A stretch of 64,000 nucleotides of DNA, taken from contig NZ_JALJVY010000002.1 of assembly GCF_024168485.1 (NCBI RefSeq), positions 124,001 to 188,000 on the forward strand, given 5' to 3'. This document shows, one piece after another, positions 30,788 through 58,015 of the stretch. Position 1 is the stretch's first letter. Every line of letters starts with the position of its first letter. The notes beneath the pieces were generated by a model. The model ran no database searches. It saw only the letters and a program-made list of their open reading frames with translations, and was not told where the DNA came from. The translations under genes were made by a program, and so were the position numbers. The DNA comes from Sphingobium sp. OAS761. GTDB lineage: Bacteria > Pseudomonadota > Alphaproteobacteria > Sphingomonadales > Sphingomonadaceae.

Positions 30788-32425
30788 TTACCTGGCAGGA
30801 TCGCATGGCCATGTCCCACTTTGCGCCAAAGCGACGCATGTGCCGTCGGTCGCGCCCGCCGGCAGGGGCAGGCCCACCATCGCGGCGAGGGTCGGCATGA
30901 TGTCCACCGCCTGGATTTCGGTGGCGGGATTTGCCGGTGCCGCACCGGGCCACCAGAACAGGATCGGAATGCGCCGGTCATAGTCCCATGGCGACCCGTG
31001 CATTGCCACGCTGCCCGGTAGCGGGGATTCCATCGGCGTGACATAGGGTTTGAAGAGCACGACAAGGTCGCCCGATCGCGTCGGATAGAAGCTGGCCCAG
31101 GCACGGTCCGCGATGCTCCATTGGGAAGCCGGCAGTGTCGGTTTCGGCGCGCGCACCAGTTCATCACGCGTCAGGACGGCCTCGACCTCGGGCAGGGCGA
31201 GGAGCGCGTCCTTCGCTATCTTCGCGACGACGGGACGCGACGCCGTGGCCGAAGGATCAAGATAGATGTCGCTTGCGTTATCCGTCGATATGAACCGGGC
31301 TCCGGCCTCCACGCCCAGTTTCGCGCGGATAGTTTCGTTGATGGCACGCGTGACCCGTTGCATGCCGATCCGCCGGGCGGCCATGTTCCCGTGGCTCCGG
31401 CTGCGTTCGGGTGCATCGGGCGCACCGTGATCCGCCGTCAGCATCAGCACGAACGGCGTCCCCATGCGTTCCAGCCGGTCGGTCAGTTCCCCGATAACCC
31501 GGTCAAGCGTGGCCATCTGGACGCACATGTCCGCACTGCCGGCGCCCGTAGCATGGCCGATATAGTCCGTTGCGGCCAGCCCTATAGCCAATATGTCCGT
31601 GGCCGCGCCACGGCCCAGCTTCATCTCCTGCGCGAGGTCGATCGCCAGTCCGGCGGTAAGTTCATCCAGCATGCCGCTCGCGCGGAACCCGCGCACGTCC
31701 CCGGGACGCGGTGTCGACGACGCCATCGCCGCATCGGGAAACAGGGGTTGCGGATCGACATGATCGCGGCAGCTATCGGGGATGGTACGCGGCGCCGGGG
31801 CAGCGATGGCCGCACGCGCACGCGCATTGGCGCGCGCCACGGCGGACGGCGGATCGCCGTCATCCGCGGCCGTCCTGAACCGCGTGCCCGACCAGAACCA
31901 GAGCTGATCGGTCGCTTGGCCACCCAGCAGCACCGCCAGCCGGTCCTTGCCCGCCACCGCAACCACGCGGCTGGCCGGATCGACCGCCTTGAGCCGGTCT
32001 CCCAGCGTCTTCGCCAGCAGATTGCGGGCCGACACCCGATAGCCGCGGTCACCGGCCACCGGCGCGTCTGGATCCTCGGCGCAATAGACCATCTTGTCGG
32101 CGCGCCGCGCATGATCGTCGATCCAGCTATTGGCGATGATGCCGTTGTGCGCGGGATGCATGCCGGTCAATATGGTCGACGCGCCCGGGCAGGTCTCGGT
32201 CGCGGCATGTGCCTGGTAACCGGATGCGAACACCACGCCTTGCGACGACAGGCGCTTGAGTCCCGCGCTGAAACTGTCGCGATATTGTTCGAACAGGTCG
32301 GCGGACAACTGGTCGACGACGATCGCCACGACCAGCCTGGGCCGGGGCGGCTGCGCCCATGCGGACGACGCCGCCATCAGTGTCGGAAGGGCAAACAATA
32401 CCGCCGCTTTCCAGACTCCTTTCAT
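30788..32425 (-). CDS. Secreted alkaline-phosphatase-superfamily phosphatase/phosphodiesterase (PafA-like)
   Basis: 545 residues from ATG 32425, which overlaps the upstream gene by 4 nt (ATGA). The signal peptide ends A-S-S-A-W-A-Q. The metal site begins V-V-D-Q-L, and the nucleophile Thr/Ser lies in A-T-E-T-C-P-G-A-S-T-I-L-T-G. Further ligands lie in A-T-D-Y-I-G-H, T-A-D-H-G-A and a late H-G-S-P. These match the type I phosphodiesterase/PafA group. A Zn-dependent periplasmic phosphatase fits. Its place as last gene of the MoxR operon suggests a role as effector, or in processing a phosphorylated periplasmic signal; this is inference. Confidence 0.85.
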   Translation of the reverse strand: MKGVWKAAVLFALPTLMAASSAWAQPPRPRLVVAIVVDQLSADLFEQYRDSFSAGLKRLSSQGVVFASGYQAHAATETCPGASTILTGMHPAHNGIIANSWIDDHARRADKMVYCAEDPDAPVAGDRGYRVSARNLLAKTLGDRLKAVDPASRVVAVAGKDRLAVLLGGQATDQLWFWSGTRFRTAADDGDPPSAVARANARARAAIAAPAPRTIPDSCRDHVDPQPLFPDAAMASSTPRPGDVRGFRASGMLDELTAGLAIDLAQEMKLGRGAATDILAIGLAATDYIGHATGAGSADMCVQMATLDRVIGELTDRLERMGTPFVLMLTADHGAPDAPERSRSHGNMAARRIGMQRVTRAINETIRAKLGVEAGARFISTDNASDIYLDPSATASRPVVAKIAKDALLALPEVEAVLTRDELVRAPKPTLPASQWSIADRAWASFYPTRSGDLVVLFKPYVTPMESPLPGSVAMHGSPWDYDRRIPILFWWPGAAPANPATEIQAVDIMPTLAAMVGLPLPAGATDGTCVALAQSGTWPCDPAR

Positions 32426-35043
32426 AGCGCCTCCGTCTGGCCCGCGGTGCAATCGGCCAGCTTCCCGCTGATCGCCTTGCGGCCGGAATCGTCGAAACCA
32501 ATATCTCCCACCGGCGTCGGCGCGAAATAGAGCGTCTCCACATCGGTTACTGCCGCCGCCTTGCTGATCACGCGTGCGACGGCGGAAAGCGTGGCGCAGG
32601 AAATGGATCGCGCTTCATCGCTGTCGATCTGTCCGTTCCCGTCGCTGTCGAACCGGGCGAGAAATATGGTCTTGAGCCCGGCGTCGATATTGCTTTTCTC
32701 CCGAATGGTCATCCGAAGTATTTCGGATTGGGCCCGATCGTTGCGCATGATGGCATCATCGCCCGATCTGCCTTCGATACTGCTCTGCGGGGACGTGGCG
32801 CCGATTTGCTGCTGGACTTCCGGTCCCGGTTCATTGACCCCTGCATATGCTTGCCCGGTTCCCTCATCCACCTTCGTTGTGGTCTTGCGCCGGTCGATCC
32901 GCACTCCGGTCGCTTTTTTCGTATCGGGCAGCTTTGTCGTATCGCTCGTCCCGGCGCTGTTGCCGCTTGCGTTCTCCATGACCGGCGGAGCGGGCGGTGT
33001 CTCATCTTGGACCTGCGACGCGGTCTCATTGCCCGCCAAGGGCTCTTCCACGGCGCTCGGCAAGTCTTGCGGCGGGACCGATCTGCTGGTGAACAAAGCG
33101 GGATAGAAAGGCAGCATCGGCATCGCCGTCAACACGACCAGCGTGGTTATCCAGGCGCGCGCGATCCGGTTCCGCCAGAGCGGCGCGACGGCATCGCGCA
33201 GCGTCGGCGCGATCTCTACCCCGAGTCGGTCGGGCACCCGACCGGTCAGCGCATCGACCAATATGCGGTCAGCCAGGACGGATTGCGGGCTGAGACGCAG
33301 CCATTCGCGCAGCTTCGCCCGGTGCCGCAGGTCGGCGCCCGCCGCCAGGTCGATCCGCACCGCACCTGCCTGCTGCGGCAACAGAAACGCCTGGATCGCC
33401 TCAGTCGCGCGCGCCAGCTGGTCGGGTGACAGGCCCTGAACGAGCGCCAGTCGCAACCAATCCGGCATATGTCCGGTACGGAACCACGGCAGGCGCGACA
33501 AGCGCAACAGACGCGCTTCCGCCAGCAGCGGCGCTCCGGCCTCGTCGACAAGACTCGATCCCATATGCACCGTCAATTCCGGTTCGACATGGGGAAAGAG
33601 CGCCAACGCGCGCAGCCAGTCCAGCCCGGCCGCGCCGAGCCAGCAATCGAGATCGTCGATCAACCCGTCGACGACGAAAGCGGGCGGCGCCTCGTCGCGA
33701 AGCAGCATCCCGCTTCCCCTTATCAGGCTTTCCGGCAGATCGAACCCGTCCGGGACAACCGAGGCGGTGCTGGATGCCGGATTTTCGAGATAGGCGGCAT
33801 AAGTGCCAAGGCCGTCCGCGTCGAAGGCAAAGGGTGGAATGCCGGCATCCCGCGCGCGGCGCTCCGCCGCGTTCCACAAGCCCGGCGGCCGCGGGTCGAG
33901 CAGGGCCGGGACGGACGCCTGACGCAGGGTGTCGACCCAGTTCGTCCCCACATCAGGCGCGAGCGAGTCGAAACTTTCGGCCAGAATAAGGGGGTTGGCG
34001 CGTGCGTTTAGCGCGAGCGCGCCTGCAAGCGGCACCGTCTCGCGCGCACCCCGGCCGGCGGCCGGACGCAGGCGCCGCGGATCGCCGACAAATTCAAAAT
34101 GGCTGAGCGCAATCTGTTCTGCATCCATGCGCCGCGCAAGCAGGCGCGCGTGCCAGGCGAGGTGATCCCGCGGCGAGTCCCGTTCCGACAGCAGCAGATA
34201 TTCCGGACTGAGCGCCCGGCTGCGAAAACGCAACCGGGGCGATCCACCCGCGCCGATCGTGGCCTTCACCGTCGCGCGAAGGTCGAGCCGATATCCCCGC
34301 TCCCGCCGGTGCCGCCGCAGACGCCGCAGCGCCAGACGCCAGGCGCGCCCGGTCATGAGGCCATTGGGATTTTCCGCCAGACGCAGGGCCAGCGCGCGCT
34401 GTGGGGCAGGCGCATGATCCCGCAACAATTGCCGCCGACGCAAAATCTCCGACACGCTATAGGCCGCCGCAATCAGCAAGAGCACGACCAGCGGGACGAT
34501 CGCTGGCCAGTTCGGCAAGGGCGAAGTGCCCGGCGGGCTGATCTGGTTCGTCGAACCGCCTTTGTCGGCCTGCTGAACATTCGCCACGCCCCCGCTGTCA
34601 TTGCCGCCGTCCGGCGAGGATTGACCAGGATCCGGCGCGAAATGCACCAGCACGACGACGATGGCGATCAGCAGGAATGTCCCGCTCGCCAGGATGACCC
34701 ATCGCCGGCGCCACCAGAGGACAGGCCGATCGGGCGCCAGTGGCACTGTTGCCGTGTCCGTCGCCTCGTCCGCCTCACCGGGATGCTCCCTGGCGGGCGG
34801 AGCCGCCGCGCCGGCCTGCATCCCGGCGAACAGCGTGAGGAACGCCTGCCGCTCGTGACTGGATCGACACAGGGCGGCCGCCAGCCACATCGGGATGCGC
34901 ACGTCGTCCGGGCCGATACCGCGCGCGATCAGATGGCGTCGCAACGATTCCAGACGCAGATGCGCGCCCGGCCCCATATGCAGCAGACGGGCCGCTTCAA
35001 GACCGCGCGCGAAGAAATCCGGGGCATCGATCGCGGCCGACAC
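32422..35043 (-). CDS. Three-helix membrane protein with degenerate vWA-like core and periplasmic EF-hand
   Basis: 873 residues from GTG 35043, 4 nt after the MoxR stop. Residues 1-80 form a helical domain (F-A-R-G-L-E-A-A-R-L-L-H-M...F-L-T-L-F-A-G-M) like the N-terminus of vWA proteins encoded with MoxR. Helices at about 115-136 and 181-201 precede a large cytoplasmic region. That region has R-A-L-S-P-E-Y-L-L-L-S, where a vWA strand would be, but no D-x-S-x-S metal site. It continues with L-L-D-P-R-P-P-G-L-W and L-P-W-F-R-T-G-H-M-P-D-W-L-R. A third helix (632-651) leads to a disordered stretch and a perfect EF-hand loop (799-810, D-S-D-G-N-G-Q-I-D-S-D-E). It is proposed as the transmembrane partner of MoxR; family naming is inference. 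Confidence 0.7.
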   Translation of the reverse strand: MSAAIDAPDFFARGLEAARLLHMGPGAHLRLESLRRHLIARGIGPDDVRIPMWLAAALCRSSHERQAFLTLFAGMQAGAAAPPAREHPGEADEATDTATVPLAPDRPVLWWRRRWVILASGTFLLIAIVVVLVHFAPDPGQSSPDGGNDSGGVANVQQADKGGSTNQISPPGTSPLPNWPAIVPLVVLLLIAAAYSVSEILRRRQLLRDHAPAPQRALALRLAENPNGLMTGRAWRLALRRLRRHRRERGYRLDLRATVKATIGAGGSPRLRFRSRALSPEYLLLSERDSPRDHLAWHARLLARRMDAEQIALSHFEFVGDPRRLRPAAGRGARETVPLAGALALNARANPLILAESFDSLAPDVGTNWVDTLRQASVPALLDPRPPGLWNAAERRARDAGIPPFAFDADGLGTYAAYLENPASSTASVVPDGFDLPESLIRGSGMLLRDEAPPAFVVDGLIDDLDCWLGAAGLDWLRALALFPHVEPELTVHMGSSLVDEAGAPLLAEARLLRLSRLPWFRTGHMPDWLRLALVQGLSPDQLARATEAIQAFLLPQQAGAVRIDLAAGADLRHRAKLREWLRLSPQSVLADRILVDALTGRVPDRLGVEIAPTLRDAVAPLWRNRIARAWITTLVVLTAMPMLPFYPALFTSRSVPPQDLPSAVEEPLAGNETASQVQDETPPAPPVMENASGNSAGTSDTTKLPDTKKATGVRIDRRKTTTKVDEGTGQAYAGVNEPGPEVQQQIGATSPQSSIEGRSGDDAIMRNDRAQSEILRMTIREKSNIDAGLKTIFLARFDSDGNGQIDSDEARSISCATLSAVARVISKAAAVTDVETLYFAPTPVGDIGFDDSGRKAISGKLADCTAGQTEAL

Positions 35044-35047
35044 GGCG

Positions 35048-36205
35048 TCAGCCCGACGCCGCCTGACGCAAGATACGGCGTCCGATATCCAGATCCTCGG
35101 CCGATTTGAGCAGCGCGCACAGCGTCCGTTCAATCTCCTTCGGTCGCGTGCGCACGGCAGTGGAGAGCGACATGCCCGGACCCAGTCCGACATGATTGAG
35201 CAATATGTCGAACCAGGCCAGCAATTCGGCCGTGCCGGGTTTCTTGCGCAATTGCGGCGTGTCGTGGATTTGCAGGAAGGCAGTCACCGCCTCCTGTACC
35301 AACGGGCTGTCCGGGGCGAAGCTTGCCCTGCGTTCGTCGACCGTTGCAGCGGACGCCCCCTCCTCTAATGCTTCCTCCTGCTCGTCCGGCCGATACCCGC
35401 CCAGCGTCGCGCTGACGATTTCGGCGAGCTGGTCCGGATTGGGGAACGGGATGTCGAAATAGGCGCAGCGGCGCAAAAAAGGTTCGGGCAGCGACCGTTC
35501 GGAATTGCTGGTCAGGATGACGATGGGCCGCTTGATACCCGGCGTCAGCTTCAACCCCAGTTCGGGGATAGCGAATTGCAGCGTCTCGAACTCGGCGAGC
35601 AGGTCGTTGGGCGTATCGCGCGGCGCCTTGTCCAGCTCATCGATCAGCACCACGCTATGCACCGCCTCGCCAAGGCCGCCGCCCGGCAGCAGCAATCCGG
35701 CCCGGGGCGCCTCCCCCGCGGCCGATTTTCCAAAGGCCCTGACCAGCAGCGCCTCGTCCGGCGGATTGCCGAACAGGTCCGTCAGGGGCGCGCTGTCGCC
35801 GCCGCCGCGCAAGATGCCCAGGCCAAGGGCATTGAACCGCACATAGTCGATCAGCGGCCGAATCTCATTCTGGCTGGCATCGCGGAAGCGCGCGACCTCA
35901 TCGAAACTGTAGAGCAGGTCGACGCCGGTGGTGCCGGACTTGACGTCCGATTTCAGCGGCCTGCCCAGCCCCAGCTCGTGGGCCAGCCAGAAGGCCGCCC
36001 TGGTCTTGCCGGTCCCCGGTTCGCCGGTCAGCAGCAACGGCACGCCGAGCAGCATCGCCACGTCGACCGCTTCGGCCAGGCCGGGCGCGGGCTTGTAGGT
36101 CGTCGGCCGGTCATGATCGGCGACCAATGGCGGCCATAGCGCGAAGCTCTCCGCGCCGCTGCCTTCCGCTTGCGGCGACGTCCTTACGGCAACGAATTCG
36201 ACCAT
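35048..36205 (-). CDS. MoxR-family AAA+ ATPase
   Basis: 385 residues, cytosolic. Walker A G-E-P-G-T-G-K-T is at 61-68, Walker B V-V-L-I-D-E-L-D at 184-191, sensor-1 region I-V-I-L-T-S-N-S-E, and an Arg-rich segment P-F-L-R-R-C-A-Y-F. All catalytic motifs are intact. MoxR ATPases act as chaperone-like remodelers together with vWA-domain proteins. Here the following gene encodes a degenerate vWA-like membrane protein. It lies 15 nt after the trypsin-like gene in one minus-strand operon. Confidence 0.92.
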   Translation of the reverse strand: MVEFVAVRTSPQAEGSGAESFALWPPLVADHDRPTTYKPAPGLAEAVDVAMLLGVPLLLTGEPGTGKTRAAFWLAHELGLGRPLKSDVKSGTTGVDLLYSFDEVARFRDASQNEIRPLIDYVRFNALGLGILRGGGDSAPLTDLFGNPPDEALLVRAFGKSAAGEAPRAGLLLPGGGLGEAVHSVVLIDELDKAPRDTPNDLLAEFETLQFAIPELGLKLTPGIKRPIVILTSNSERSLPEPFLRRCAYFDIPFPNPDQLAEIVSATLGGYRPDEQEEALEEGASAATVDERRASFAPDSPLVQEAVTAFLQIHDTPQLRKKPGTAELLAWFDILLNHVGLGPGMSLSTAVRTRPKEIERTLCALLKSAEDLDIGRRILRQAASG

Positions 36206-36220
36206 CGCCCTGTCCCCTTT

Positions 36221-37726
36221 CTATGCCAGTTGCCGGATCCAGCCATTGATCGCGTCCAGCCGGAAACGCTCAGACAATGGCAGGCTTCGGCGCGCCTGCG
36301 CCTTGATATCGTCGATCCGGTCCTCGTCCAGATCCATCTCAGCCCCGACCCGCTCCACCCAGGTTTCGACATTGTCGAACATGAAGTCGTTCAGCAGTTC
36401 GGTACCGGCCAGACGGCCGGGAACGCCCCGGTCGTTCACATCGGCCAGCGCGCCCGCGTAAAAACGGCGCAGGCGATGCATGGGCTCGGGTGCGGCCGGA
36501 TCGACCTGACCGGCGTCCAGCCGGAAAATGATGAAATGGATGCAGGGCTTTTCCAGCCTTTCCGAACTCAGCTCCCGCAGCAGGTCGCCCCATTGGCGCA
36601 ATAATTGCGCGTGGCGACGACCCCAGTGACGCTGGTCGATCATGCTGAAAAAGGCGGACGGCTGGTGCCGATCGTTCAATCCCTGGCGGATCGCGGCAGC
36701 ACCGGCCTCATCGCTGCCGACATGATAGGCGATTACGTTGCGCATCCGGTCGAACTCGCCCGCCACATCGAAACGCTCGCGCACCGGCCAGGAAATTTCT
36801 TCCGCCAGGAATTTGCGAAAACTGAATCCCTGCTTCTCAAGAAAGGGGCGCAGGGTCAGCCGCAGCCGCTCACGGCACGACAGCGGCAGGTCGGCGTCCA
36901 GCCCGGCAATAGCGCACATGAATGCCCCCGACGCATCCTGCCAACGTGCCTTGAACGCCGTTCTGAAATGGGCGACCTGATCGCTCCGGTCAAATTCCTC
37001 GAACGCATTGAGCCAGGCACGGTTGACCGGCACGGCCGCCGGTCCGGGCGGCGCTGCACCGGACTGCACCGCTGTGGGCGCTTCCAGGTCGAAACTCCAC
37101 ATATCGCCAAGTACCGCCAGCGGGACGATGAACGCAGTGCGCGCCTCCTGCTTTTCGACGACCATGCCGATCAGCCCCCCGGGGCCGAAGGCGCCCGTGC
37201 CGGAGCAACCCCGCCGAACGGCAATCTCCTCGTCCCGGAAATGCACGCGCCGCCGGCTCAAATCGTCATAATCGCCCAGCGCGCCGCGCAGGCCGACGCC
37301 ACCCACATCCCCCGACCAGCGTCCTTCCTCGTCCCGGAGATGGCCCATGCCCAACGCATAGACGGGCATATCGTCGGCCAGCGTGCCCCGCATCGGCGTT
37401 GCGGCGACGAAATCGACGGGGAAGGAGAAGCCCGGCGCCAGTTCAAGCAGGCAAAGGTCACGCAGACGATGGATCGCCGGTCCCATCGCCTCCGTGCCGT
37501 CCGACGGATGAAAATCCCGAACGACCAGCTGCGCGCGATGAAAAGGCGCCATAGGGAAACGCGCCGAAACCACGTCGCCCTTTTTCAGCGGACCACCGAC
37601 ACAGGCGGCGACGACATGAGTGCAACCAAGCACATGCCGCTGCCCGCAAATGAAGCCGCAGCCCAGCAGATTTCCCTCCGCATCGCCGAGACGAACCTGA
37701 CAGGCGAGCCGTTGTTCGGAATTCAT
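36221..37726 (-). CDS. Trypsin-like serine protease fused to an iSTAND-like C-terminal region
   Basis: About 501 residues from ATG 37726, preceded by GGGGG; ATG 37822 and GTG 37852 are in-frame alternatives. The chymotrypsin-fold domain shows His37 in G-C-T-H-V-V, Asp90 in L-R-D-L-C-L-L-E-L and Ser175 in R-G-C-S-G-T-G-A-F. The protein has no signal peptide and so is cytosolic. Residues about 230-500 resemble the inactive-STAND regions that cap proteases in bacterial conflict systems (F-M-C-A-I-A-G-L, S-F-R-K-F-L-A-E-E, W-G-D-L-L-R-E-L...H-F-I-I-F-R-L). No Walker A is visible. It is likely the effector or activating protease held in check by the C-terminal part. First gene of the MoxR operon. 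Confidence 0.8.
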   Translation of the reverse strand: MNSEQRLACQVRLGDAEGNLLGCGFICGQRHVLGCTHVVAACVGGPLKKGDVVSARFPMAPFHRAQLVVRDFHPSDGTEAMGPAIHRLRDLCLLELAPGFSFPVDFVAATPMRGTLADDMPVYALGMGHLRDEEGRWSGDVGGVGLRGALGDYDDLSRRRVHFRDEEIAVRRGCSGTGAFGPGGLIGMVVEKQEARTAFIVPLAVLGDMWSFDLEAPTAVQSGAAPPGPAAVPVNRAWLNAFEEFDRSDQVAHFRTAFKARWQDASGAFMCAIAGLDADLPLSCRERLRLTLRPFLEKQGFSFRKFLAEEISWPVRERFDVAGEFDRMRNVIAYHVGSDEAGAAAIRQGLNDRHQPSAFFSMIDQRHWGRRHAQLLRQWGDLLRELSSERLEKPCIHFIIFRLDAGQVDPAAPEPMHRLRRFYAGALADVNDRGVPGRLAGTELLNDFMFDNVETWVERVGAEMDLDEDRIDDIKAQARRSLPLSERFRLDAINGWIRQLA

Positions 37727-37856
37727 GAGCCCCCAGCCCGCGCGCATCCGGACCGAAATGGCGGGACGCCGATCAAGCAAGGATGACCCCAAATAGGAGT
37801 ATTCGCAACCCGATTTGTCCATTTTCCAAGTATTATCCGCTATCGGCGACACGGAT

Positions 37857-37866
37857 TTTATAATAT
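37857..37866 (+). promoter_or_regulatory. AT-rich divergent promoter region between the two protease operons
   Basis: The spacer between the trypsin-like and subtilase genes is markedly AT-rich compared with its surroundings. It contains TATAAT at 37859-37864 on the plus strand, a perfect -10 match, but no clear -35. On the opposite strand the same bases give ATTATA. Function is inferred from position only. Confidence 0.3.
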
Positions 37867-38013
37867 TGTTCTACCATCCGCATGATCGTCGGCCTTTCCG
37901 CTGAGTCGTGCGTGACCTATGACATGCTTCCCGATGACGGCTGATGACGGGCGCGCGGGGACACAACGATAACAAAAGGGCGCGGCAAACGGCAACGGAC
38001 GAGGGGACAGTCC

Positions 38014-39270: not shown

Positions 39271-39277
39271 GGCTGGC

Positions 39278-40501: not shown

Positions 40502-41841
40502 TGGTAAGCCCGGCAGGTATATCGATCAGCTTCGGCGGAACCCGGGGAAGCGACGACGACAGTCGTCCAGTGGTCGCGCGCGTCTTCGGCTTTGCCCGTG
40601 ACGACGAAGAACGTCCGATCAGTCATGAAATGGTCGTGCCCGCCGGGCAGACCGTATCGCAGGACCTTCCCCAGGGCATGTATAATGTGCAGCTGACCCT
40701 GCCTTCAGGGCGCATCCTCCAGCGCAACGTGCAGATCAACGAGGACAGCAACGAACGCTACACCTTCTTTGAGGATTTCGCGCCCGGTGCCGGCTTCAGC
40801 CTTCAGGAAACGATGGGACAGGCGGACCGGTCCAGCCTGTCGCGTGCCCTGTCCGCATCGGGCAACAGCAGCAGCGATGAGTATTTCAAGGCACTGGAAC
40901 GCGCCAGCACGATCGATTCCACGACGACATCGCCGCTGCAAAGCTTCAGAAAGGGGTTGCGATATTGGCGGACGCCGGCACCCGCGTCGCCCCTGCCCGC
41001 CCCGCCTGTCCATGCCACGATGTCGCTGCTGCGCGACCCGGTTCTGGACATGACGCAAAATGACCCGCCCCCTTCGGAGGCCGACGCCATTGCCCCGGCG
41101 GAACTGCTTGGAAACGGGGCGATGTGGCGCATAGCGTCCGACCGCGTCGCTTCCCCCGACAAGCATGTCCGACATTGGGCTCATGTTACCTTGCCAAATG
41201 GCCGGGTCGAGGTCGCCAGCCTGCCGCTGCCCTGGCTCTGCGCTGCGTCTGGCACGCTGTCACAGGCGACCCTGCTGGTGGACCCCGCCCGGACCGACGA
41301 TGCGGCGACCCGGGTGGCGGTGGACGACGCGGCCATGGCTGGCCTGCTGTCCTTTCTCGATCGAGGCCAGGCCAATGCCGCTGGCCCGATGCTCGAAATG
41401 CTGGAACGCGACGACGTGATCGAACGCGTGATCCGCGACGGACAAAATTCCCTTGCCGCCTGCGCCGCCGCTTATGTCGGCTTGGCGGTGTATGATCCGT
41501 ATGAGCGGGAAATCTGGGACGCGCGCTTATATGATTGCATGATGCGCTATCCCCATGTGCCGGACGCGGCTATCGTCCATGCGCGCCGCGCGATCCTGCG
41601 TCCGCAGAACAGCGACGACAACGGCGAGGCCGCCGAGGCGCTGCGACGGGCCTGCGCGGCGGGCATTCCCTATTTCAGCGCCGGTGTCCCCTTGTTACAG
41701 GAAATGCTGCTGCTGCTGTCGCCTGATTTCCCTGACCTTGCCCCGCTGGCGGCGCGTGCGGCGCAACTCGCCGCGCGAACCGACCTGGGCCAGGCCTTCA
41801 CGGTTCTGCGCTACGCCGCGCCAAAGGAGGACAGGACATGA
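40498..41841 (+). CDS. Unknown protein with N-terminal beta-rich domain, between caspase and MBL genes
   Basis: 447 residues; the start overlaps the caspase stop and the end overlaps the next start, both by ATGA. The first 100 residues look like a beta-sandwich (V-P-A-G-Q-T-V, D-L-P-Q-G-M-Y-N-V-Q-L-T-L-P-S-G-R). A Ser-rich linker and a Pro-rich stretch follow. The C-terminal third is helical and repeat-like (A-C-A-A-A-Y-V-G-L-A-V...). No catalytic motif is seen. It may be an adaptor or a substrate of the neighbouring proteases. No family is recognised. Confidence 0.75.
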   Translation: MMVSPAGISISFGGTRGSDDDSRPVVARVFGFARDDEERPISHEMVVPAGQTVSQDLPQGMYNVQLTLPSGRILQRNVQINEDSNERYTFFEDFAPGAGFSLQETMGQADRSSLSRALSASGNSSSDEYFKALERASTIDSTTTSPLQSFRKGLRYWRTPAPASPLPAPPVHATMSLLRDPVLDMTQNDPPPSEADAIAPAELLGNGAMWRIASDRVASPDKHVRHWAHVTLPNGRVEVASLPLPWLCAASGTLSQATLLVDPARTDDAATRVAVDDAAMAGLLSFLDRGQANAAGPMLEMLERDDVIERVIRDGQNSLAACAAAYVGLAVYDPYEREIWDARLYDCMMRYPHVPDAAIVHARRAILRPQNSDDNGEAAEALRRACAAGIPYFSAGVPLLQEMLLLLSPDFPDLAPLAARAAQLAARTDLGQAFTVLRYAAPKEDRT

Positions 41842-42890
41842 GCGTGTTTCGTCTCTCGATGCTGCCGGCCAACGAAGGCGACTGCCTGATCCTGAGCTAT
41901 GGCGACGGCGTGCAGCCGTTGCGACATGTGGTGGTCGATGGCGGACGCAAGGGATGCTGGGCGCATCTGAAACCGGCGCTCAGCACGATCGAGGCCTATG
42001 GCGAAACCGTGGAACTGCTGCTGTTGAGCCATATCGATGCGGATCATATCGACGGGTTGCGCGCCTTTGCGGAAGATCCGCATCCGCCGCTGGTCCCGAT
42101 CGAAATATGGCATAACGGCTTTGTCCAGTTGCAGGGACTTGCCACCCGCGGCGGCTTGCAACCCATGGGTTTTCCCGCCGCCGATGCCTATAGCAAGGCG
42201 CTGGCGGACAAGGGCTGGACGCTCAACCATCATTTCGGCGGCAAAGCCATTGTCGTCGGCGATGAGCCCATGACGTTCGATTTTGCGGACCTGCGGTTGA
42301 CGTTGCTGTCACCCACCGTGTCCAAACTGCGCCAGCTCTGGTCGGGCTGGCGAACCTGGCACGACGCGCAGGCGGGCGGCTTGCAGCCCCTGGGCAAGCG
42401 GCCGATGCCGGCGGTACTGGATGTCGAGCGGCTCAGCGCGGCCAGCCCCGAGGATTCGACCGTTCCCAACGGCTCCAGCATCGCGATGATCATCGAATAT
42501 GGCGGCCGGTCGGTGCTGCTCGGTGCGGACGCTCATCCCGACATTCTGACAGACATGCTGGACAAGCTTGCCGTCGATGGCGCGCTTCCCCGGTTCGACC
42601 TCGTCAAGCTGCCGCATCATGGCAGTCGTGCCAACGTGACCCGCGCCCTGCTGGAAAGGATGGACTGCCATCGTTTCGCCATCTCGACCAGCGGCGCGGT
42701 TTTCGGCCACCCCGATCCGGAGGCCATCAGCCGGATCCTGCGTTTCGGCAGCGCCGGTCACAAGCTGTTCTATTTCAACTATGCCAGCGACCGGACCACG
42801 CCGTGGAACGACGGAGCGCTGAAACAGCGCTGGGATTATGAGTGTCGGTTCCCCGACCAGGAAAGGCAACCGTTGGTCATCGACATATAG
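41838..42890 (+). CDS. Metallo-beta-lactamase-fold hydrolase (ComEC/Rec2-like MBL domain)
   Basis: 350 residues, soluble. The metal motif L-S-H-I-D-A-D-H-I-D-G-L (H-x-D-x-D-H) is intact. Further ligands lie in L-G-A-D-A-H and L-P-H-H-G-S, with a C-terminal His in F-G-H-P. This pattern is that of the stand-alone ComEC-like MBL proteins often found in defence and conflict loci, possibly acting on nucleic acids or nucleotides. There is no membrane competence region, so it is not a DNA-uptake channel. Last gene of the plus-strand protease operon. Confidence 0.88.
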   Translation: MSVFRLSMLPANEGDCLILSYGDGVQPLRHVVVDGGRKGCWAHLKPALSTIEAYGETVELLLLSHIDADHIDGLRAFAEDPHPPLVPIEIWHNGFVQLQGLATRGGLQPMGFPAADAYSKALADKGWTLNHHFGGKAIVVGDEPMTFDFADLRLTLLSPTVSKLRQLWSGWRTWHDAQAGGLQPLGKRPMPAVLDVERLSAASPEDSTVPNGSSIAMIIEYGGRSVLLGADAHPDILTDMLDKLAVDGALPRFDLVKLPHHGSRANVTRALLERMDCHRFAISTSGAVFGHPDPEAISRILRFGSAGHKLFYFNYASDRTTPWNDGALKQRWDYECRFPDQERQPLVIDI

Positions 42891-42898
42891 GCCGGCGA

Positions 42899-43792
42899 TC
42901 AGGTGGATGGCGGCGGATCGTGCGGCGCCGGGTCCGGTGCCGGTTCCAGCCTGACCAATTGCGGCAATATCCAGGTCCACAGCAGCACCAATATGCTGGC
43001 AACCTTCTGAATCTGTTGCTGCTGCATCCTGGCGTCGATGTCGGTGTGCAGGACATATTTGATGTTTTCGGCCAGCGACAGGTCCAGCGTCGCACCGACC
43101 CACAGCAGGAAAGACATGGCGGATACCGCCACGGCGGCCTTGTTGACCGTACCCTGCGCGCTGCGCAGCGCTGCGACGCGCACCACGATGACCGCAAGCA
43201 GCACGACGGCCACCAGCCACAGCGCACCGCCCCCGGCGATCTGGACCGCGGCCAGATAGACCGTCACTGCCTCGGCCGGGAACATCGTCATCAGCTTGGC
43301 GAACCAGGGCGGATCCGCAGCCGGCTTGGGCGGCGGGGGGGGCGTCGGGGCGCCACCGCTTTCCGCACCGGTCAGCGCAGGTGGCACGCGGGGAAAAGGC
43401 ATTGCCACATATGTCCTGGTGCTTTTTGTCCGCAATTGTCCGGAAAATCGCAGGAAGCTGCTTTCGCGGAGCGCGGAGGTCACCGCCTCCAGCGCATCGC
43501 CACCCTGATTGGAGTGGTCATAGACCGGTTGCTGGCTGGCAGCGCTGCCCGGCACCATCTGGGCGATGGCGGCCAGCCCTTTTCGCGCATGTGCCAGCGG
43601 CAGATCATAATAGGCCGAATTGTCACCGAAACGCGGCGCGGTCATGAAGGCGTTGAGCTGGCCGTTGTAAAAAAGATGCAAAGCCGAAAACGCCCCGCGT
43701 TCCGCATCCGAAAAGCGCCCGTCGCCGGCCAGCGCGTGCAGAGCGTCGCGGAATGCCACAGCCGCGTCGATCAGATCGGATTTGCTCGCCAT
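42899..43792 (-). CDS. Membrane protein with about three C-terminal helices
   Basis: 297 residues from the ATG overlapping the upstream stop (TGATG). Residues 1-130 are soluble with helical content (A-F-R-D-A-L-H-A-L and L-R-E-S-S-F-L-R-F). A poly-Pro linker (T-P-P-P-P-P-K-P) leads to three hydrophobic helices (V-T-V-Y-L-A-A-V-Q-I-A-G, L-V-A-V-V-L-L-A-V-I-V-V, and I-L-V-L-L-W-T-W-I-L-P) with a Q-rich stretch (M-Q-Q-Q-Q-I-Q) before the last. No family is recognised. It could be a pore-like effector or an anchor. Coupled to the lipoprotein gene. Confidence 0.7.
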   Translation of the reverse strand: MASKSDLIDAAVAFRDALHALAGDGRFSDAERGAFSALHLFYNGQLNAFMTAPRFGDNSAYYDLPLAHARKGLAAIAQMVPGSAASQQPVYDHSNQGGDALEAVTSALRESSFLRFSGQLRTKSTRTYVAMPFPRVPPALTGAESGGAPTPPPPPKPAADPPWFAKLMTMFPAEAVTVYLAAVQIAGGGALWLVAVVLLAVIVVRVAALRSAQGTVNKAAVAVSAMSFLLWVGATLDLSLAENIKYVLHTDIDARMQQQQIQKVASILVLLWTWILPQLVRLEPAPDPAPHDPPPST

Positions 43793-44913
43793 CAGATCAC
43801 CCCCCATGCAGAAACGGCCTTCGCGACCAGGCCCAGCGCGTCGATGATGCGCTTGCCGGACTCGTCCGCCGCCTTCGCGCGTTGTGCATCCGTCGGATTG
43901 TCCAGAGCGTGGCGCAGGTCCGCCTGCTCCCTGTCGAGTTGTTCGACCGATTTCAGGAATGCGTCCGTGGTCGGCTTCACCTTCTCGCGGTCGCTGACAG
44001 ACTGGCGATACAGCGTGAGCAACGCGAGGCGTCCGTCGAAATCCAGCTTGCCGCGTTCATTCTCATAGGCGGTGCGCAAATTATCGACCGTGACCTGCGA
44101 ATATCCCGCGGTGGCCACTTCCTGCCATTGCCGGATCTGCACGGGCAGGCTGGCGATCGCCTGTTCAACCTTGTCGCCATGCGCGCGCAGGGCAGCCCTG
44201 ATATCGCGCACCTGTCCGGCTTCGTGCGACAGCGCCGCCACGAAATCGAGCAGCGCCACCGCGGCTTCGACCTGCTTGGACTTGAGGTCGGGCAGCGCGG
44301 GCAAGGAGGTGCCCGTCAACCCTTCGGCGATGGTCTTGGCCTCGGCCGCCTTGGCGGCGATGTCGTCCATCTGCTTACGGATGTCGGGTTTGGGCTCCGC
44401 GACAATACGGGCCAGCGCGGCGCCATAATCGCCGATCGCGCCGATCAGCAGCACGGTAGGCTTCAACGCCTCCGAACTGGCAGGACTGAAGCTGACCGAC
44501 TTGACCCTGTAATTTGCCAGGACGGCGTCCGCGCCATTGGCGCACAACGGCGCCCTGGGATCATTCGGCACCGGCGGACGCAAGGGCACGAAGATATAGA
44601 CGGGGTCCACCGGCGAACAATGCGGGTCGCTGGCGATCAAGGTAAGATAGGCACGGGCGCGACGCGCCTCGGCATCGTCGATTGCCGACCTGGCTTTGGC
44701 TACCACGGCAGACGAGGCGGCACTGACATTGCCCGCCGTTTCGACACGCACCCGATTCATGCCGCAACCCGCCATCAGAACGGAAAGCAGCAGGGTCATG
44801 CAGACGATCGCGGGCTTCCCGCCACGGGCACGCCAGCCAACGGCTCCCTGCGCCGGCACCATATACATGGATGCCGTCGCCTTGCCATTTCCCCAGGATC
44901 GGAAGCCCCCCAT
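43792..44913 (-). CDS. Lipoprotein with helical/coiled-coil content, unknown
   Basis: 373 residues; ATG 44913 has GAGGGG upstream. The hydrophobic stretch M-T-L-L-L-S-V-L-M-A-G-C is a lipobox, though the preceding leader is unusually long (about 38 residues), so a downstream start is possible. The mature protein is largely helical (D-I-R-K-Q-M-D-D-I-A-A-K-A-A-E-A-K and S-V-E-Q-L-D-R-E-Q-A-D-L-R), consistent with a rod-like envelope protein. It is expressed with the three-helix membrane protein, perhaps as one envelope assembly. Confidence 0.7.
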   Translation of the reverse strand: MGGFRSWGNGKATASMYMVPAQGAVGWRARGGKPAIVCMTLLLSVLMAGCGMNRVRVETAGNVSAASSAVVAKARSAIDDAEARRARAYLTLIASDPHCSPVDPVYIFVPLRPPVPNDPRAPLCANGADAVLANYRVKSVSFSPASSEALKPTVLLIGAIGDYGAALARIVAEPKPDIRKQMDDIAAKAAEAKTIAEGLTGTSLPALPDLKSKQVEAAVALLDFVAALSHEAGQVRDIRAALRAHGDKVEQAIASLPVQIRQWQEVATAGYSQVTVDNLRTAYENERGKLDFDGRLALLTLYRQSVSDREKVKPTTDAFLKSVEQLDREQADLRHALDNPTDAQRAKAADESGKRIIDALGLVAKAVSAWGVI

Positions 44914-45174
44914 GGCACCCCTCTACCGCAAAGCAACGAAGTCACGGAAAGGTTGGCAAAAATGCCTTCCCCGCCCGAATCGTCCATAGAAACAATGAAA
45001 ATGTAACTTGCTTTAACCTTGATCGAAGTAGCGCATATAGTCAAATCAATTGACGACTTTAGGCATGACCAGTTGATTCCGTTTCGGATGTCATACCATC
45101 TGGCATCGTAATGAACTGGTGATGGAAAACCAAATCGTGTATACAGGCATTATTTCAGAAGCGGGGCGGTATCG

Positions 45175-46068
45175 ATGCGGTTGACGTCCATCACGAAAAT
45201 GGGGGGAGAAGCGGCGACGCCGCTTCCCCGGGCCTTGACCGAGGAAATCATCCTGCCAGGCGCACCGGCCGCCCTGCCATCCAAACCGGGCACGGTGCGA
45301 CGGCTGGCGACCCTTGCCAGATCGCCCGTATCGGCGGCACGCGGCATGGGTTTTGGCATCCGCTCGATTATCGGCTCGGACGAACGCACGCGCATCCATG
45401 CCACGGAAGAGGCGCCCTGGCGGATGATCTGCGCGCTGGAGATCGCCAGCCCCTGGGGCGATTTCATCGGGACCGGCTGGTTCGCGGGTCCGCGCACGAT
45501 CATCACCGCCGGACATTGCGTATTCGACCGCGCACAGATGGGCGGATGGGCCAGCACGATCACGGTCACCCCCGGCCGCGACGGCGCCGAAAAGCCCTTT
45601 GGCCAGATGCGCGCCACCAAATTTTCAAGCACCGATGCCTGGATCGAGCGACAGGACCCCGATTTCGATGTGGCCGCCATCCACCTGCCTGCCGACGCGG
45701 CAGTGCCGGCGGACATCGGCTGGTTCGGCGTGGCTGCCTATCCCAACGACAAATTGACGGGAATGAGCGTGAACGTCAGCGGTTATCCCGGCGACCGGGG
45801 CGACGGCACCGAACAATGGTGGGCGCGCAACCGCATCCACCGCCTGGCGCCGCGCCGGATATTCTACGATGTCGACACGATGGGCGGACAAAGCGGCGCC
45901 CCGGTCTATGTACTGCCGGACGCGCGCACGCCGCCCGTGGTGATCGGCGTCCATGCCTATGGCGTCGGCGGCTCCGCGGCCGCAGGTCAGGATTTGAATT
46001 CAGGGCCCCGGATGATCCCGGAGCTGACGGAATGCATTGCCGGCTGGATCGCGGCCGACGCGGGGTGA
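45175..46068 (+). CDS. V8/glutamyl-endopeptidase-like serine protease
   Basis: 297 residues with no evident signal peptide. The trypsin-fold triad is His114 in I-T-A-G-H-C-V, Asp165 in D-F-D-V-A-A-I and Ser240 in G-G-Q-S-G-A-P-V, the G-x-S-G-x-P pattern typical of V8-like enzymes. About 80 residues precede the fold and may be a pro-segment (I-H-A-T-E-E-A-P-W before the mature core). It is the second trypsin-fold protease of the island but only distantly like the first. It leads an operon with the patatins. Confidence 0.9.
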   Translation: MRLTSITKMGGEAATPLPRALTEEIILPGAPAALPSKPGTVRRLATLARSPVSAARGMGFGIRSIIGSDERTRIHATEEAPWRMICALEIASPWGDFIGTGWFAGPRTIITAGHCVFDRAQMGGWASTITVTPGRDGAEKPFGQMRATKFSSTDAWIERQDPDFDVAAIHLPADAAVPADIGWFGVAAYPNDKLTGMSVNVSGYPGDRGDGTEQWWARNRIHRLAPRRIFYDVDTMGGQSGAPVYVLPDARTPPVVIGVHAYGVGGSAAAGQDLNSGPRMIPELTECIAGWIAADAG

Positions 46069-46072
46069 TCCC

Positions 46073-46327
46073 ATGACGCGCCATGCGGTTGTCGGACAGG
46101 TCCTATCGGGAAATGGCGCGCCGGTGGCGGGCGCGTTCGTCATGGTGACCGGCGGGACAAGTCCGTCGCCCGACATTGCCGCGCGAACGGATCGGACGGG
46201 CTGTTTCCGGCTGGCGCTGCCCGATGGTCATTTCACGCTGGAGGCGCATCATCGCGATGCGCATGGCCGGGTCACCATTGATGTCGAAGGCGAAATGACG
46301 CCGGTCAGGCTGGTGGTGAAGGATTGA
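46073..46327 (+). CDS. Small carboxypeptidase-regulatory-like beta-sandwich protein
   Basis: 84 residues, starting 4 nt after the V8-like stop. It reads V-V-G-Q-V-L-S-G-N-G-A-P-V-A-G-A-F-V-M-V, then T-D-R-T-G-C-F-R-L-A-L-P-D-G-H-F-T-L-E-A. This is the hallmark pattern of the carboxypeptidase regulatory-like/transthyretin-like fold, here as a lone domain. It may bind or cap the adjacent protease. No catalytic residues are expected. Confidence 0.8.
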   Translation: MTRHAVVGQVLSGNGAPVAGAFVMVTGGTSPSPDIAARTDRTGCFRLALPDGHFTLEAHHRDAHGRVTIDVEGEMTPVRLVVKD

Positions 46328-46339
46328 AGGGGGACAGGC

Positions 46340-47602
46340 ATGGGACGCGGATTGAGGAACGCCCTGGTCGCGATGCTGGCAATGCCGCTCGCGGCGTGCG
46401 CCACATCGGGTGCGCTGGACATTGCCTGCCGGGATTTCGACAATCCTGACCCGCAGCGCAGCCTGCGACAGAAGCTGCCGCCCAGCGCACTGGAACAGCA
46501 GATACAGAGCGGCGGAGCCGAAGCGGCTCCCGCCCGGGCGCCGCTGGATGCGGCACTGGAAGCCGCACTGATGCCGGCAGCAACCAGCGGCGCCGAAAGC
46601 ACACCGCGCAAACCGAGTTACCTGTTGCTGTCCGGGGGCGGTCAGTGGGGTGCCTTCGGCGCGCAATTTCTGGCGGAACAGCATCGCCAGGGAGCATTGC
46701 CGCCGTTCAAGATCATCACCGGGGTCAGCACCGGCGGCCTCCAGTCCCTGTTCCTGGGCGTCGGAACCGACGAGGCATTCGACCAGCTCGTTGCCGCTTA
46801 CAGTCCGTCCGGCGAGGCCGAAATCGTCGACCGTCATCCGCAATGGCAAGCGGCGATCCGCGGGGCGATCGCGGGCCTGAAACCACTCAAGCGCAGGATC
46901 GAGCAGCGCATCTGCGCCGATCCCTCGCGCCCCTGTTTCATCGATGCGCTGGCGCAGTCGGGAAAGCAGATACTGATAGGGTTCGTGGAGGCGGATTCAG
47001 GCAGCTTCTATTATGTCGACGCGGTCCGCATCGCCCGGTTGCCGGACCGACGGGAAGCCCGCGCGTGCCTCACCGCCGCCGCGCTGGCATCGGCGGCGAT
47101 GCCGGTCTTTTTCCAGCAAGTGCGTATCAACGGCGTCACCTATTATGACGGCGGCGTCCGCCAGTCCGTCTTCGAATCGCGTATTGCCGAGGGGATCGGC
47201 CGCGCCGAGCGCGCCGTGGCGCGCGATCGTGGCGGCATACCGGCAGGCCGTCTTTATGTCGTGCGCAACGGCCCCACGACCCTGGCATCCGATGCCAAGG
47301 CCAATGACGCGGCCGATGCCCTGACCAACGCGCTGCGTGCGGAGGCGATCATCGTCAACCAACTGGAGGTGGGATCGATCGCCGCCTTGCGGCTGGAACG
47401 GCCGAGCGAACCGATATCGCTGATCACCGCCCAGGGCTGGAACAACCATCCCGACCCCGCCGCACCCGGTCAATTTTGCCATAAAGCTAATCCGGACGCG
47501 ATGTTCGACCCCGGCTTCATGGCTTGCCTGCGCGATTTCGGAAAGAGCAAGGCCGCCCTTCCGGCCCCCTGGATCGCGCTGCGCCCCATCACCCAACGCT
47601 AG
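46340..47602 (+). CDS. Patatin-like phospholipase, lipoprotein
   Basis: 420 residues. The signal peptide ends in lipobox P-L-A-A-C (Cys20), so it is probably membrane-anchored in the periplasm. The catalytic dyad is Ser130 in G-V-S-T-G-G and Asp270 in Y-Y-D-G-G, with oxyanion loop L-S-G-G-G-Q-W-G. It would hydrolyse acyl esters of membrane lipids. About 60 residues between lipobox and catalytic domain look disordered (A-A-P-A-R-A-P-L-D). It lies 12 nt after the sandwich-protein gene. Confidence 0.9.
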   Translation: MGRGLRNALVAMLAMPLAACATSGALDIACRDFDNPDPQRSLRQKLPPSALEQQIQSGGAEAAPARAPLDAALEAALMPAATSGAESTPRKPSYLLLSGGGQWGAFGAQFLAEQHRQGALPPFKIITGVSTGGLQSLFLGVGTDEAFDQLVAAYSPSGEAEIVDRHPQWQAAIRGAIAGLKPLKRRIEQRICADPSRPCFIDALAQSGKQILIGFVEADSGSFYYVDAVRIARLPDRREARACLTAAALASAAMPVFFQQVRINGVTYYDGGVRQSVFESRIAEGIGRAERAVARDRGGIPAGRLYVVRNGPTTLASDAKANDAADALTNALRAEAIIVNQLEVGSIAALRLERPSEPISLITAQGWNNHPDPAAPGQFCHKANPDAMFDPGFMACLRDFGKSKAALPAPWIALRPITQR

Positions 47603-47650
47603 GACCGGCGCACCGCCGGACCGTTACGCCATCGGCAGGGAGGCCATGAC

Positions 47651-48766
47651 ATGAGCAGCAATATCGAAGAGCCGGTATCGACCGAGGATCGCGGCGAACA
47701 GTTGGAGGACGGTATCGGCATCGCCCTGTCGGGCGGCGGATACCGGGCGACCCTGTTCCATCTGGGCGGGCTTCTGCGCCTGTTCGAAGCCGGCCTGCTG
47801 ATGAAGGCCGCGCGCATCTCCAGCGTATCGGGCGGATCGATCACATCGGCCAAGGTCGCGCTCGAATGGCCGCGCCTGACGGATCGGGACGCCTTCATGA
47901 CCCATGTCGTTGCGCCGATCCGCAAGCTCACGGCGATCACCATCGACATCCCCTCCATCGTCGGCGGGCTGTTGCTGCCCGGCAGCGTGGCCGACAGGGT
48001 CGCGGAACAATATAGACGCCACCTCTTCGGCGACGCGACATTACAGGACCTGCCTGACGCGCCGCGCTTCGTGATCAACGCGACCAATGTCGAAACCGGA
48101 TCGCTATGGCGCTTTTCCAAACCCTATATGCGCGACTGGCGGGTCGGAACCGTGGAACGCCCAACCGTTCCCCTCGCCGAGGCGGTGACGGCCTCTTCGG
48201 CCTTCCCGCCCGTGCTTTCCCCCTATGTGCTGCGCGTCGGCGCCGATGATTTCACCCAGATCGAGCCCGGCGTGGATGAGCGCCTGCTGGAGGATGTCTC
48301 CCTTACCGACGGCGGCGTCTATGACAATCTCGGCCTGGAAACCGTGTACAAGCGCTATCGCACCTTGCTGGTGGCCGACGCCGGCGGCGCGCTGCAACCC
48401 GATCCGTCGCCGCCTGCCGACTGGGCACAACATGCCAAGCGTGTACTCGACATCATTCACGGCCAGGTATCCAGCGTACGCGTTCGCCAGTTGATCCAGG
48501 CGTTCGACCGTGGAGATAGAAAGGGAGCCTATTGGGGCATCAGAAGCGATATCGCCAACCTGGGCGCCACGTCTCCGCTTCCCGCGCCGCTGGAACGCAC
48601 ACGGCAGCTGGCGGCAACGCCGACGCGTCTGAAGCGCCTTTCGTCCGAACTTCAGGAGAGGCTGATCAATTGGGGCTATGCGGCGTGCGACGCTGCGGTT
48701 CGAGGCCATGTCCTGTCAGGCGGCACCCCAGCGGCTGCGTTCCCCTATCCCTCGTCGGGCGTATGA
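47651..48766 (+). CDS. Patatin-like phospholipase, cytosolic
   Basis: 371 residues, no signal peptide. The dyad is Ser60 in S-V-S-G-G-S and Asp220 in L-T-D-G-G-V-Y-D-N, with oxyanion loop L-S-G-G-G-Y-R-A. The arrangement is like the patatins that serve as lipase effectors in several antiphage systems. With the lipoprotein patatin next door, both faces of the inner membrane could be attacked; this is inference. Its 3' end overlaps bufC tail-to-tail by 22 bp. Confidence 0.92.
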   Translation: MSSNIEEPVSTEDRGEQLEDGIGIALSGGGYRATLFHLGGLLRLFEAGLLMKAARISSVSGGSITSAKVALEWPRLTDRDAFMTHVVAPIRKLTAITIDIPSIVGGLLLPGSVADRVAEQYRRHLFGDATLQDLPDAPRFVINATNVETGSLWRFSKPYMRDWRVGTVERPTVPLAEAVTASSAFPPVLSPYVLRVGADDFTQIEPGVDERLLEDVSLTDGGVYDNLGLETVYKRYRTLLVADAGGALQPDPSPPADWAQHAKRVLDIIHGQVSSVRVRQLIQAFDRGDRKGAYWGIRSDIANLGATSPLPAPLERTRQLAATPTRLKRLSSELQERLINWGYAACDAAVRGHVLSGGTPAAAFPYPSSGV

Positions 48767-50375: not shown

Positions 50376-50449
50376 TGGATAAAGATCCTGATGCTGGGGG
50401 CAACGCGCTGGTCCGATCCGCGGGAACAAACCGGCGCGCTGCCTATCCG

Positions 50450-50719
50450 TCAGTTGGGGGCGGTCAGGCTGCCGCCCGCCTTGGCGCAGGCATTCTTGGT
50501 CAGGTCCTTAAATCCCTGGCCCTTGCAATCATTCTGGCCCTTGCAATCATGATTGCCCGACTTGCAGTCCGATTGGCCCTTGCATGCGTTGACGCCATAG
50601 CAGGCAACCTTTTCGGCGGCGGCATGTTTTGCGAAGACCGGCGTACTGGTCGCGGCGGACGTGACGGCGATCAGCGCGGCGGCGGCGGCAAAACCGGCAT
50701 GTTTGGTGAGGATGGTCAT
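50450..50719 (-). CDS. bufA: Bufferin-type metallophore precursor, CKGQ-repeat (BufA2-like)
   Basis: 89 residues from ATG 50719; the longer frame only adds the 5' leader. The signal peptide ends A-T-S-T-P-V-F-A, so the peptide goes to the periplasm. The core has Cys40, 46, 52, 59, 65 and 78 in a repeating C-K-G-Q-x-D-C pattern starting with C-Y-G-V-N-A-C. It lies 74 nt before bufB and 38 nt downstream of a SigF-type -10 element. Bufferins bind copper in the periplasm after Cys modification. The subfamily name is from memory. Confidence 0.88.
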   Translation of the reverse strand: MTILTKHAGFAAAAALIAVTSAATSTPVFAKHAAAEKVACYGVNACKGQSDCKSGNHDCKGQNDCKGQGFKDLTKNACAKAGGSLTAPN

Positions 50720-50756
50720 GATAGTCTCCAAATGAGGTGCCTTGTTGGCCTTCTGC

Positions 50757-50783: not shown

Positions 50784-50797
50784 ATCTCCATCGTGAT

Positions 50798-58011: not shown

Positions 58012-58015
58012 CCCC

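Follow-up and report, generated by a model that had tools for sequence, protein, structure and literature searches.

An accessory island of Sphingobium sp. OAS761 that probably unites an iSTAND-type ternary system and a Canu caspase-nuclease operon, with a subtilase and a patatin as likely Canu companions

Canu is a caspase-nuclease antiphage system, CanABC, whose variable loci are situated in defence islands and for which caspase-dependent DNase activity and phage defence have been demonstrated with the Klebsiella proteins, as given in the main text of Tuck et al. (Science 2025, PMC12799240). The iSTAND-type MoxR-vWA ternary systems, outlined as a predicted kind by Kaur et al. (eLife 2020, PMC7159879), consist of an iSTAND protein that often bears a trypsin or caspase domain, a MoxR ATPase, and a vWA protein whose N-terminal domain is CoxE-like, which has TM (transmembrane) segments in about 28% of the cases and whose C-terminal part varies. 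We have analyzed a stretch of 64,000 nucleotides (nt) from Sphingobium sp. OAS761 (contig NZ_JALJVY010000002.1, positions 124,001 to 188,000), hereafter the window, which contains an island of 14 genes at 30788-48766. This island is probably an accessory defence island with two protease-driven systems, one iSTAND ternary system and one Canu system, the S8 protease and the second patatin being likely companions of the Canu operon.

The fourteen genes, with the order, coordinates and folds given in a preliminary description made from the sequence, were verified by open reading frames (ORFs), Pfam domain searches and motifs. All the active-site motifs searched for were present, i.e., Walker A and B in MoxR, D/H/S in the S8 protease, CGHG and DACR in the caspase, HxDxDH in the metallo-beta-lactamase (MBL) fold protein, H and S in the V8 protease, and GxSxG and DGG in patatin 1; DGG is present in patatin 2 too, with an SVSGG elbow replacing GxSxG. 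The genes form four strings (minus strand, 30788-37747; plus, 38014-42890; minus, 42899-44913; plus, 45346-48766), and so the overlaps and short gaps reported before hold within the strings (-16 to 48 nt, negative values being overlaps) and a single operon does not. The junctions are, in the first string, phosphatase/vWA -4, vWA/MoxR 4 and MoxR/iSTAND 15 nt; in the second, S8/caspase 7, caspase/CanB -4 and CanB/MBL -4 nt; in the third, membrane protein/lipoprotein -16 nt; and in the last, V8/sandwich 4, sandwich/patatin 1 12 and patatin 1/patatin 2 48 nt. The iSTAND and S8-Canu operons start divergently, with 266 nt between them. No compositional shift was detected at the island (GC 0.630-0.677, against 0.596-0.677 across the window), and a promoter and terminator scan did not yield more sites than shuffled sequences. 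The genes are the following (values after family names are E values):

30788-32425, minus strand: P0001, alkaline phosphatase of PhoY/PafA type (Phosphodiest 5e-29)
32422-35043, minus strand: P0002, CoxE/vWA-like membrane component (VWA_CoxE 0.0027, below cut-off)
35048-36205, minus strand: P0004, MoxR-type AAA+ ATPase (Pfam AAA 1.4e-7; Walker motifs)
36221-37747, minus strand: P0003, trypsin-like and iSTAND protein (Pfam iSTAND 0.0092, below cut-off; GCSGTG and THV motifs)
38014-39270, plus strand: P0005, S8 subtilase (Peptidase_S8 1.1e-32; D/H/S motifs)
39278-40501, plus strand: P0006, putative CanA, caspase with a C-terminal Ig-like domain (Peptidase_C14 1.5e-5)
40498-41841, plus strand: P0007, putative CanB (kept beside caspase and MBL genes; structural model)
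41838-42890, plus strand: P0008, putative CanC, MBL-fold gated pro-nuclease (Lactamase_B; Avs1a/LmuA/ComEC-like)
42899-43807, minus strand: P0009, membrane protein (hydropathy; no Pfam match)
43792-44913, minus strand: P0010, lipoprotein-like protein (confined to this genome among 51)
45346-46068, plus strand: P0011, V8/trypsin-like protease (Trypsin_2 7.4e-9; an alternative upstream start at 45175 is possible)
46073-46327, plus strand: CarboxypepD_reg sandwich protein of 84 amino acids (aa) (PF13620, E 1.5e-9)
46340-47602, plus strand: P0012, patatin 1, with a lipoprotein-type signal (Patatin 3.2e-19)
47651-48766, plus strand: P0013, patatin 2 (Patatin 8.8e-19; 53% identical to the patatin of a Sphingobium canu operon)

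According to their sequences and structural models, the genes at 39278-42890 are the predicted canA, canB and canC genes of a Canu system. The likeness to the system described in the main text of PMC12799240 comprises a MALT1-like caspase-Ig model, a partner with a sandwich and a helical repeat, a two-loop MBL pro-nuclease and an identical gene order. The CanA model (pLDDT 92.0, pTM 0.91) has MALT1 entries, several of them labelled caspase-IG3, as all of its 16 top PDB matches (Foldseek, best E 2.3e-8), and residues H138 and C188 are invariant across 31 CanA sequences. The CanB model (pLDDT 74.6) consists of a sandwich, a beta domain and a helical (TPR-like) repeat, with weak PDB matches only (best E 0.04); CanB is predicted to be the complex partner of CanA from the overlap of its gene with both neighbors and from its conservation beside caspase and MBL genes elsewhere, and its search against plasmid records gave two Bradyrhizobium matches. 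CanC resembles the ComEC nuclease (E 1.3e-10) and also the Avs1a and LmuA models, below the curated cut-off where one exists. In an alignment of 41 CanC sequences each of its gating loops carries a glycine motif (LQPMG at residues 107-111 and LQPLG at 182-186). Two or more strict matches to the gating motif anywhere in the protein are found in 15 of the 41 sequences, that of the window included; the motif appears once more in the window CanC, outside the loops, and once also in the window phosphatase.

A scan of genome contigs with the caspase alignment yielded at least 52 loci, making 60 with eight plasmid loci (L005, L011-L017). Matches to caspase, CanB-like and MBL proteins occur together in 39 of the 60, hereafter triad loci, which are not independent, since L011 and L019 are of one species and many others are from Streptomyces. 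According to the record titles they span Pseudomonadota, Actinomycetota, Bacteroidota, Acidobacteriota and Chloroflexota, and the order CanA-CanB-CanC is kept in all but one (L037, with the MBL gene first). The counts come from raw ORFs, since gene calling missed genes in L012, L025, L026 and L028 and fused them in L023, L024 and L034. The canu genes are fused in some triad loci.

The gated nuclease-protease pairs of Avs1, Lamassu and Hachiman share the MBL family with the window, but their trypsin forms a fusion with the sensor and their nuclease is encoded upstream, whereas the window has a free caspase encoded upstream (PMC12799240). With respect to Canu as presented in the main text of the same paper, the window differs in the S8 subtilase gene ahead of canA and in the patatin genes downstream. 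This subtilase has no visible signal peptide and its gene is the first of the operon. A free subtilase linked to an ATPase also recalls IetAS, an antiphage pair of an AAA and an S8 protein, but the window subtilase has 418 aa rather than about 800, no IetA-type ATPase adjoins its gene, and the window MoxR resembles IetA only weakly. Pairs of AAA and S8 proteins, or their AAA part, were found by Pfam near canABC in five of the 39 triad loci (L005, L013, L017, L037 and L047), and from their arrangement we take these pairs to be of the IetAS type.

The preliminary description had attributed a lipid-destroying arm to the island, and this claim received unexpected support. A phospholipase gene lies directly beside the start of canA in 19 of the 39 triad loci, seven encoding patatins (L011, L018, L019, L022, L035, L036 and L042) and 12 Tle1-like phospholipases (L005, L020, L021, L023, L024, L025, L028, L029 and L031-L034). 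These genes, on either strand relative to canA, are at most 219 nt from the caspase match and belong to three phyla (Pseudomonadota, Actinomycetota and Acidobacteriota). Among the 583 called genes of the triad loci, the PAT and Tle1 profiles matched nothing else except for one fragment of the L011 patatin gene; in L012 the position is occupied by a different alpha/beta hydrolase. In Sphingobium terrigena (L018), patatin, CanA, CanB and CanC are encoded consecutively with overlaps, and are 53, 63, 53 and 60% identical, respectively, to the window proteins. A phospholipase being the commonest recognized canA neighbor in the loci examined, a joint damage of DNA and membrane is likely, and the lipase would be a co-effector of Canu. 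The main text of PMC12799240 mentions no lipase, phospholipase, subtilisin or patatin, and, judging from it and from the open-access literature, the link between canA and lipases appears to be new.

The family of patatin 2 points in the same direction. Patatin 2 has matches in 56 plasmid records, which in 33 cover 80% or more of its length. Of these records 14 were examined, namely L103-L109 and L111-L116, chosen non-randomly among 25 matches listed, and L011. In their 6-11 kb flanks an ORF matching the CanC profile (E <1e-8) was found in 12 of the 14 (11 of 13 without L011), L108 and L115 having none, and the match is strong (1e-50 or better) in L011, L103, L109 and L116. As a background, the 59 caspase-chosen loci L011-L069 (1,036,619 bases) hold a single CanC-profile ORF outside the CanC position, in L018. 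The arrangement is patatin-S8-MBL in L103 and patatin-hypothetical-S8-MBL in L116, so that S8 takes the place of the caspase between patatin and MBL; patatin-629 aa protein-MBL in L105 and L111; and patatin-630 aa protein-MBL in L106. The patatin is beside caspase-CanB-MBL in L011, and in L109 it lies some 2 kb away from an MBL linked to MoxR.

Several observations were made around these loci. Thirteen caspase loci in which no MBL gene was found (L040, L041, L044, L045, L046, L050, L052, L054, L056, L059, L062, L063 and L065) have an alpha/beta hydrolase gene directly upstream, mostly with a short overlap, and in six of these hydrolases a CanC-like [E]x[FL]G motif, a possible caspase site, is present within residues 49-79. 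The CanC motif occurs in Tle1-like proteins (four matches in seven) and in alpha/beta hydrolases (seven in 13) at two to three times background; cutting of patatins by the caspase at this motif found no support, with one match in seven patatins, about background. Upstream of canA-type caspases we also found an ion-channel domain protein (L064:4144-5247) and, together with an S8 protease, a NucA-type endonuclease (L057:5879-8931), and right after canC of L018, on the opposite strand, a second and distinct MBL protein with SH3-like domains (L018:12767-14062). A rhizobial operon (L010:4919-13105 and L109:14204-22404, about 44-71% identity between loci, the L109 MoxR and MBL matching over two frames) encodes proteins of 1029 and 639 aa, MoxR, a protein with multiple TM segments and an MBL of the CanC family; the 639-aa protein shows by eye a caspase/CHAT-like GHG...NAC pattern and has no Pfam match.

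The minus-strand genes at 36221-37747, 35048-36205 and 32422-35043 are identified from sequence as a predicted iSTAND-type MoxR-vWA ternary conflict system. The likeness to the systems outlined in PMC7159879 lies in the trypsin-iSTAND protein, the MoxR, the putative CoxE-type vWA protein, whose TM segments precede its vWA-like part and whose C-terminus is variable, and the Gram-negative host; the differences, in the C-terminal EF-hand loop, the alkaline phosphatase at the operon end and the fact that no Trypco gene was recognized. P0003, described before as trypsin-iSTAND-like, is aligned collinearly by hhalign (E 2.3e-5, probability 76%) to four proteins of iSTAND type, three of them above the Pfam threshold. 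Pfam finds no trypsin match in P0003, and its trypsin-like part is recognized by the GCSGTG and THV motifs and by its relative in Azospirillum (L006), which carries Trypsin_2 as well. This third component is iSTAND-like; as to VMAP ternary systems, in which it is a VMAP protein, Pfam searches of the island proteins (E <=0.05) gave no family with VMAP in its name, Pfam's holding of VMAP models being unchecked.

P0003 itself gave no match in plasmid records, and MoxR matched 104, of which five top-listed ones (L006-L010) were examined, the Azospirillum L006 MoxR being 45% identical to that of the window. In L006-L009 the order is iSTAND-type protein, MoxR and P0002 homologue, the iSTAND-type protein of L009 being below the Pfam iSTAND cut-off and carrying CHAT. 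P0002 matches three plasmid records (L006, L007 and L008), each time in the gene after MoxR (tblastn, 3/3). It has two TM helices that are clear, and an EF-hand loop at its C-terminus (DSDGNGQI at residue 799), and the module after the vWA-like part varies, being GUN4 in L007 and CPP1-like in L008; the calcium sensing proposed for the island would depend on this single loop, which is below the Pfam cut-off. A PDB profile search with P0002 gave no vWA match. The phosphatase has a signal-peptide-like start and matches the PhoY model at 1.8e-112, yet below its cut-off, and a second copy, 44% identical, is encoded elsewhere in the genome.

The island genes are mostly sparse in relatives. P0002 was found only in its own genome among 61; P0003 in 2 of 246, the second as a weak 73-residue piece; CanB in 1 of 289 genomes of the class; CanA in 5 of 94 genomes of the genus, two strongly (its own and G009) and three weakly; patatin 2 in 8 of 51, one strongly besides its own; patatin 1 in 6 of 51; the V8 protease in 5 of 119; and the phosphatase in 34 of 51. 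On the left, an SpoU-methylase gene and an HhH-GPD gene (28872-29504), the latter present in 59 of 61 genus genomes, are adjacent in five of five relatives, whose synteny with the window ends after 29504; no later window gene neighbors HhH there, and two weak matches to window genes from elsewhere were found in them. The right border was not located with the MbnB gene as a marker. This gene is present in 27 of 61 genus genomes, and in the 26 others than our own it lies on a different contig from HhH or at least 100 kb away on the same one; since it is never near HhH there, it is no syntenic partner. It belongs to a group adjoining the island at 48745-51975 (DUF2063, an MbnB/TglH/ChrH-type enzyme of ribosomally synthesized and post-translationally modified peptides (RiPPs), NrsF and a sigma factor) that resembles a metal-binding RiPP cluster, and carotenoid genes (lycopene cyclase, amine-oxidase-family desaturase-like and phytoene synthase-family) follow at 55382-59605.

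The preliminary description was right in seeing a defence island that is rich in proteases, linked to NTP, probably suicidal and equipped with enzymes that cut lipids. It also took the genes for one system and knew of no described system with this set, whereas the minus operon and the caspase-CanB-MBL operon belong to separately described kinds. Independent occurrence of the blocks in related genomes, which it had named as evidence against a single system, was found: S. terrigena holds patatin-CanA-CanB-CanC, and the vWA component is unmatched in the 60 relatives searched, on which grounds a single 14-gene system is rejected as main interpretation. Integration into one system, the view of that description, with the MoxR/iSTAND switch governing the caspase-nuclease and the lipases, would agree with the divergent operon starts and with the MoxR and CanC-family MBL genes sharing an operon in Rhizobium etli (L010) and Rhizobium L109, the latter with a patatin of the P0013 family about 2 kb away. 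We regard it as improbable, since within the genus Canu is found where the MoxR system is not, the vWA component had no match in loci L011-L069 and MoxR none stronger than 7e-16, no CanA or CanB match was found in L010 and L109, and L006-L009 hold the ternary genes with no CanC match. The iSTAND system and Canu would be independent in the window. A housekeeping role in envelope or phosphate stress, which the 4-nt overlap of the phosphatase and vWA genes might suggest, is very hard to reconcile with the sparse spread (vWA protein 1/61, CanA strong in 2/94, P0010 1/51), with the end of synteny before the island in the five relatives and with the phosphatase being an extra copy.

A more serious competitor, although still unlikely, is that the patatins, the V8 protease and the membrane protein/lipoprotein pair are envelope genes placed by chance beside two defence systems. 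They are in separate strings, patatin 1 bears a signal of lipoprotein type and is related to proteins from genomes of the genus that have no CanA match (G006 and G028), the patatins lack the cleavage motif, and the one V8 relative examined, from 29 plasmid records, sits in an unlike context; against this, the family of patatin 2 is tied to canA and to other MBL-gene loci. Some points also weigh against two systems with Canu companions. The Canu assignment was made from the published description of Klebsiella CanABC, the TM-scores between CanA and MALT1 are modest (0.38-0.45 by query), with a large root mean square deviation across both domains, and the MIDAS of P0002 is degenerate, with its CoxE-like region below cut-off. 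The window patatins are at least 3.4 kb downstream, in a separate string behind the V8 protease, and the slot adjacent to canA is occupied by the subtilase instead of a lipase. In addition, 20 of the 39 triad loci have no PAT/Tle1 match, and the profiles used to count the other 19 derive from genes first noticed beside canA and are hence biased to that position. L011 entered the patatin sample through its caspase, and in eight of the 12 positive records (L104-L107 and L111-L114) the CanC-profile match is distant (1e-17 to 1e-9). Finally, the CanC cleavage motif is missing from both window patatins and from the S8 protease, so that the sequences do not support an activation of the lipase by proteolysis.

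On balance, we favor an accessory island with two protease-driven systems. In the first, the trypsin-iSTAND sensor, the AAA+ ring and the membrane-anchored vWA-like protein would keep a switch in the off state as long as no invader is perceived. In the second, by analogy with the Canu mechanism in the main text of PMC12799240, infection would activate CanAB, CanA would cut both CanC loops, and the cut CanC would act as an unspecific DNase killing or arresting the infected cell. From its recurrence at these loci, patatin 2 would attack membranes in the same response, and the S8 protease may replace or feed the caspase, because it occupies the caspase place in L103 and L116. Our proposal is that Canu-type loci often have two effectors, one directed to DNA and one to the membrane, with an interchangeable protease. 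More tentatively, and at somewhat less than even confidence, Canu could be one branch of a protease-switched double effector formed by a phospholipase (patatin, Tle1-like or other hydrolase) and a gated MBL nuclease; the interchangeable proteases could be caspase-CanB, subtilase and perhaps the 629-aa protein or the MoxR-linked caspase/CHAT-like protein. Infection would then destroy both DNA and membrane, and a phage escaping one arm would meet the other.

It is tempting to over-read the island as a single new system, and the analysis corrects this; both protease systems are of already described kinds, and what seems new here is the lipase link. Canu has been described as a three-gene system, and a recurrent phospholipase would give bacterial caspase immunity a further arm, one that kills through the membrane. 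If true, the membrane arm parallels the animal theme of caspases opening membranes and cutting DNA, and the link raises the testable question of whether the lipase is released by the caspase or by the subtilase.

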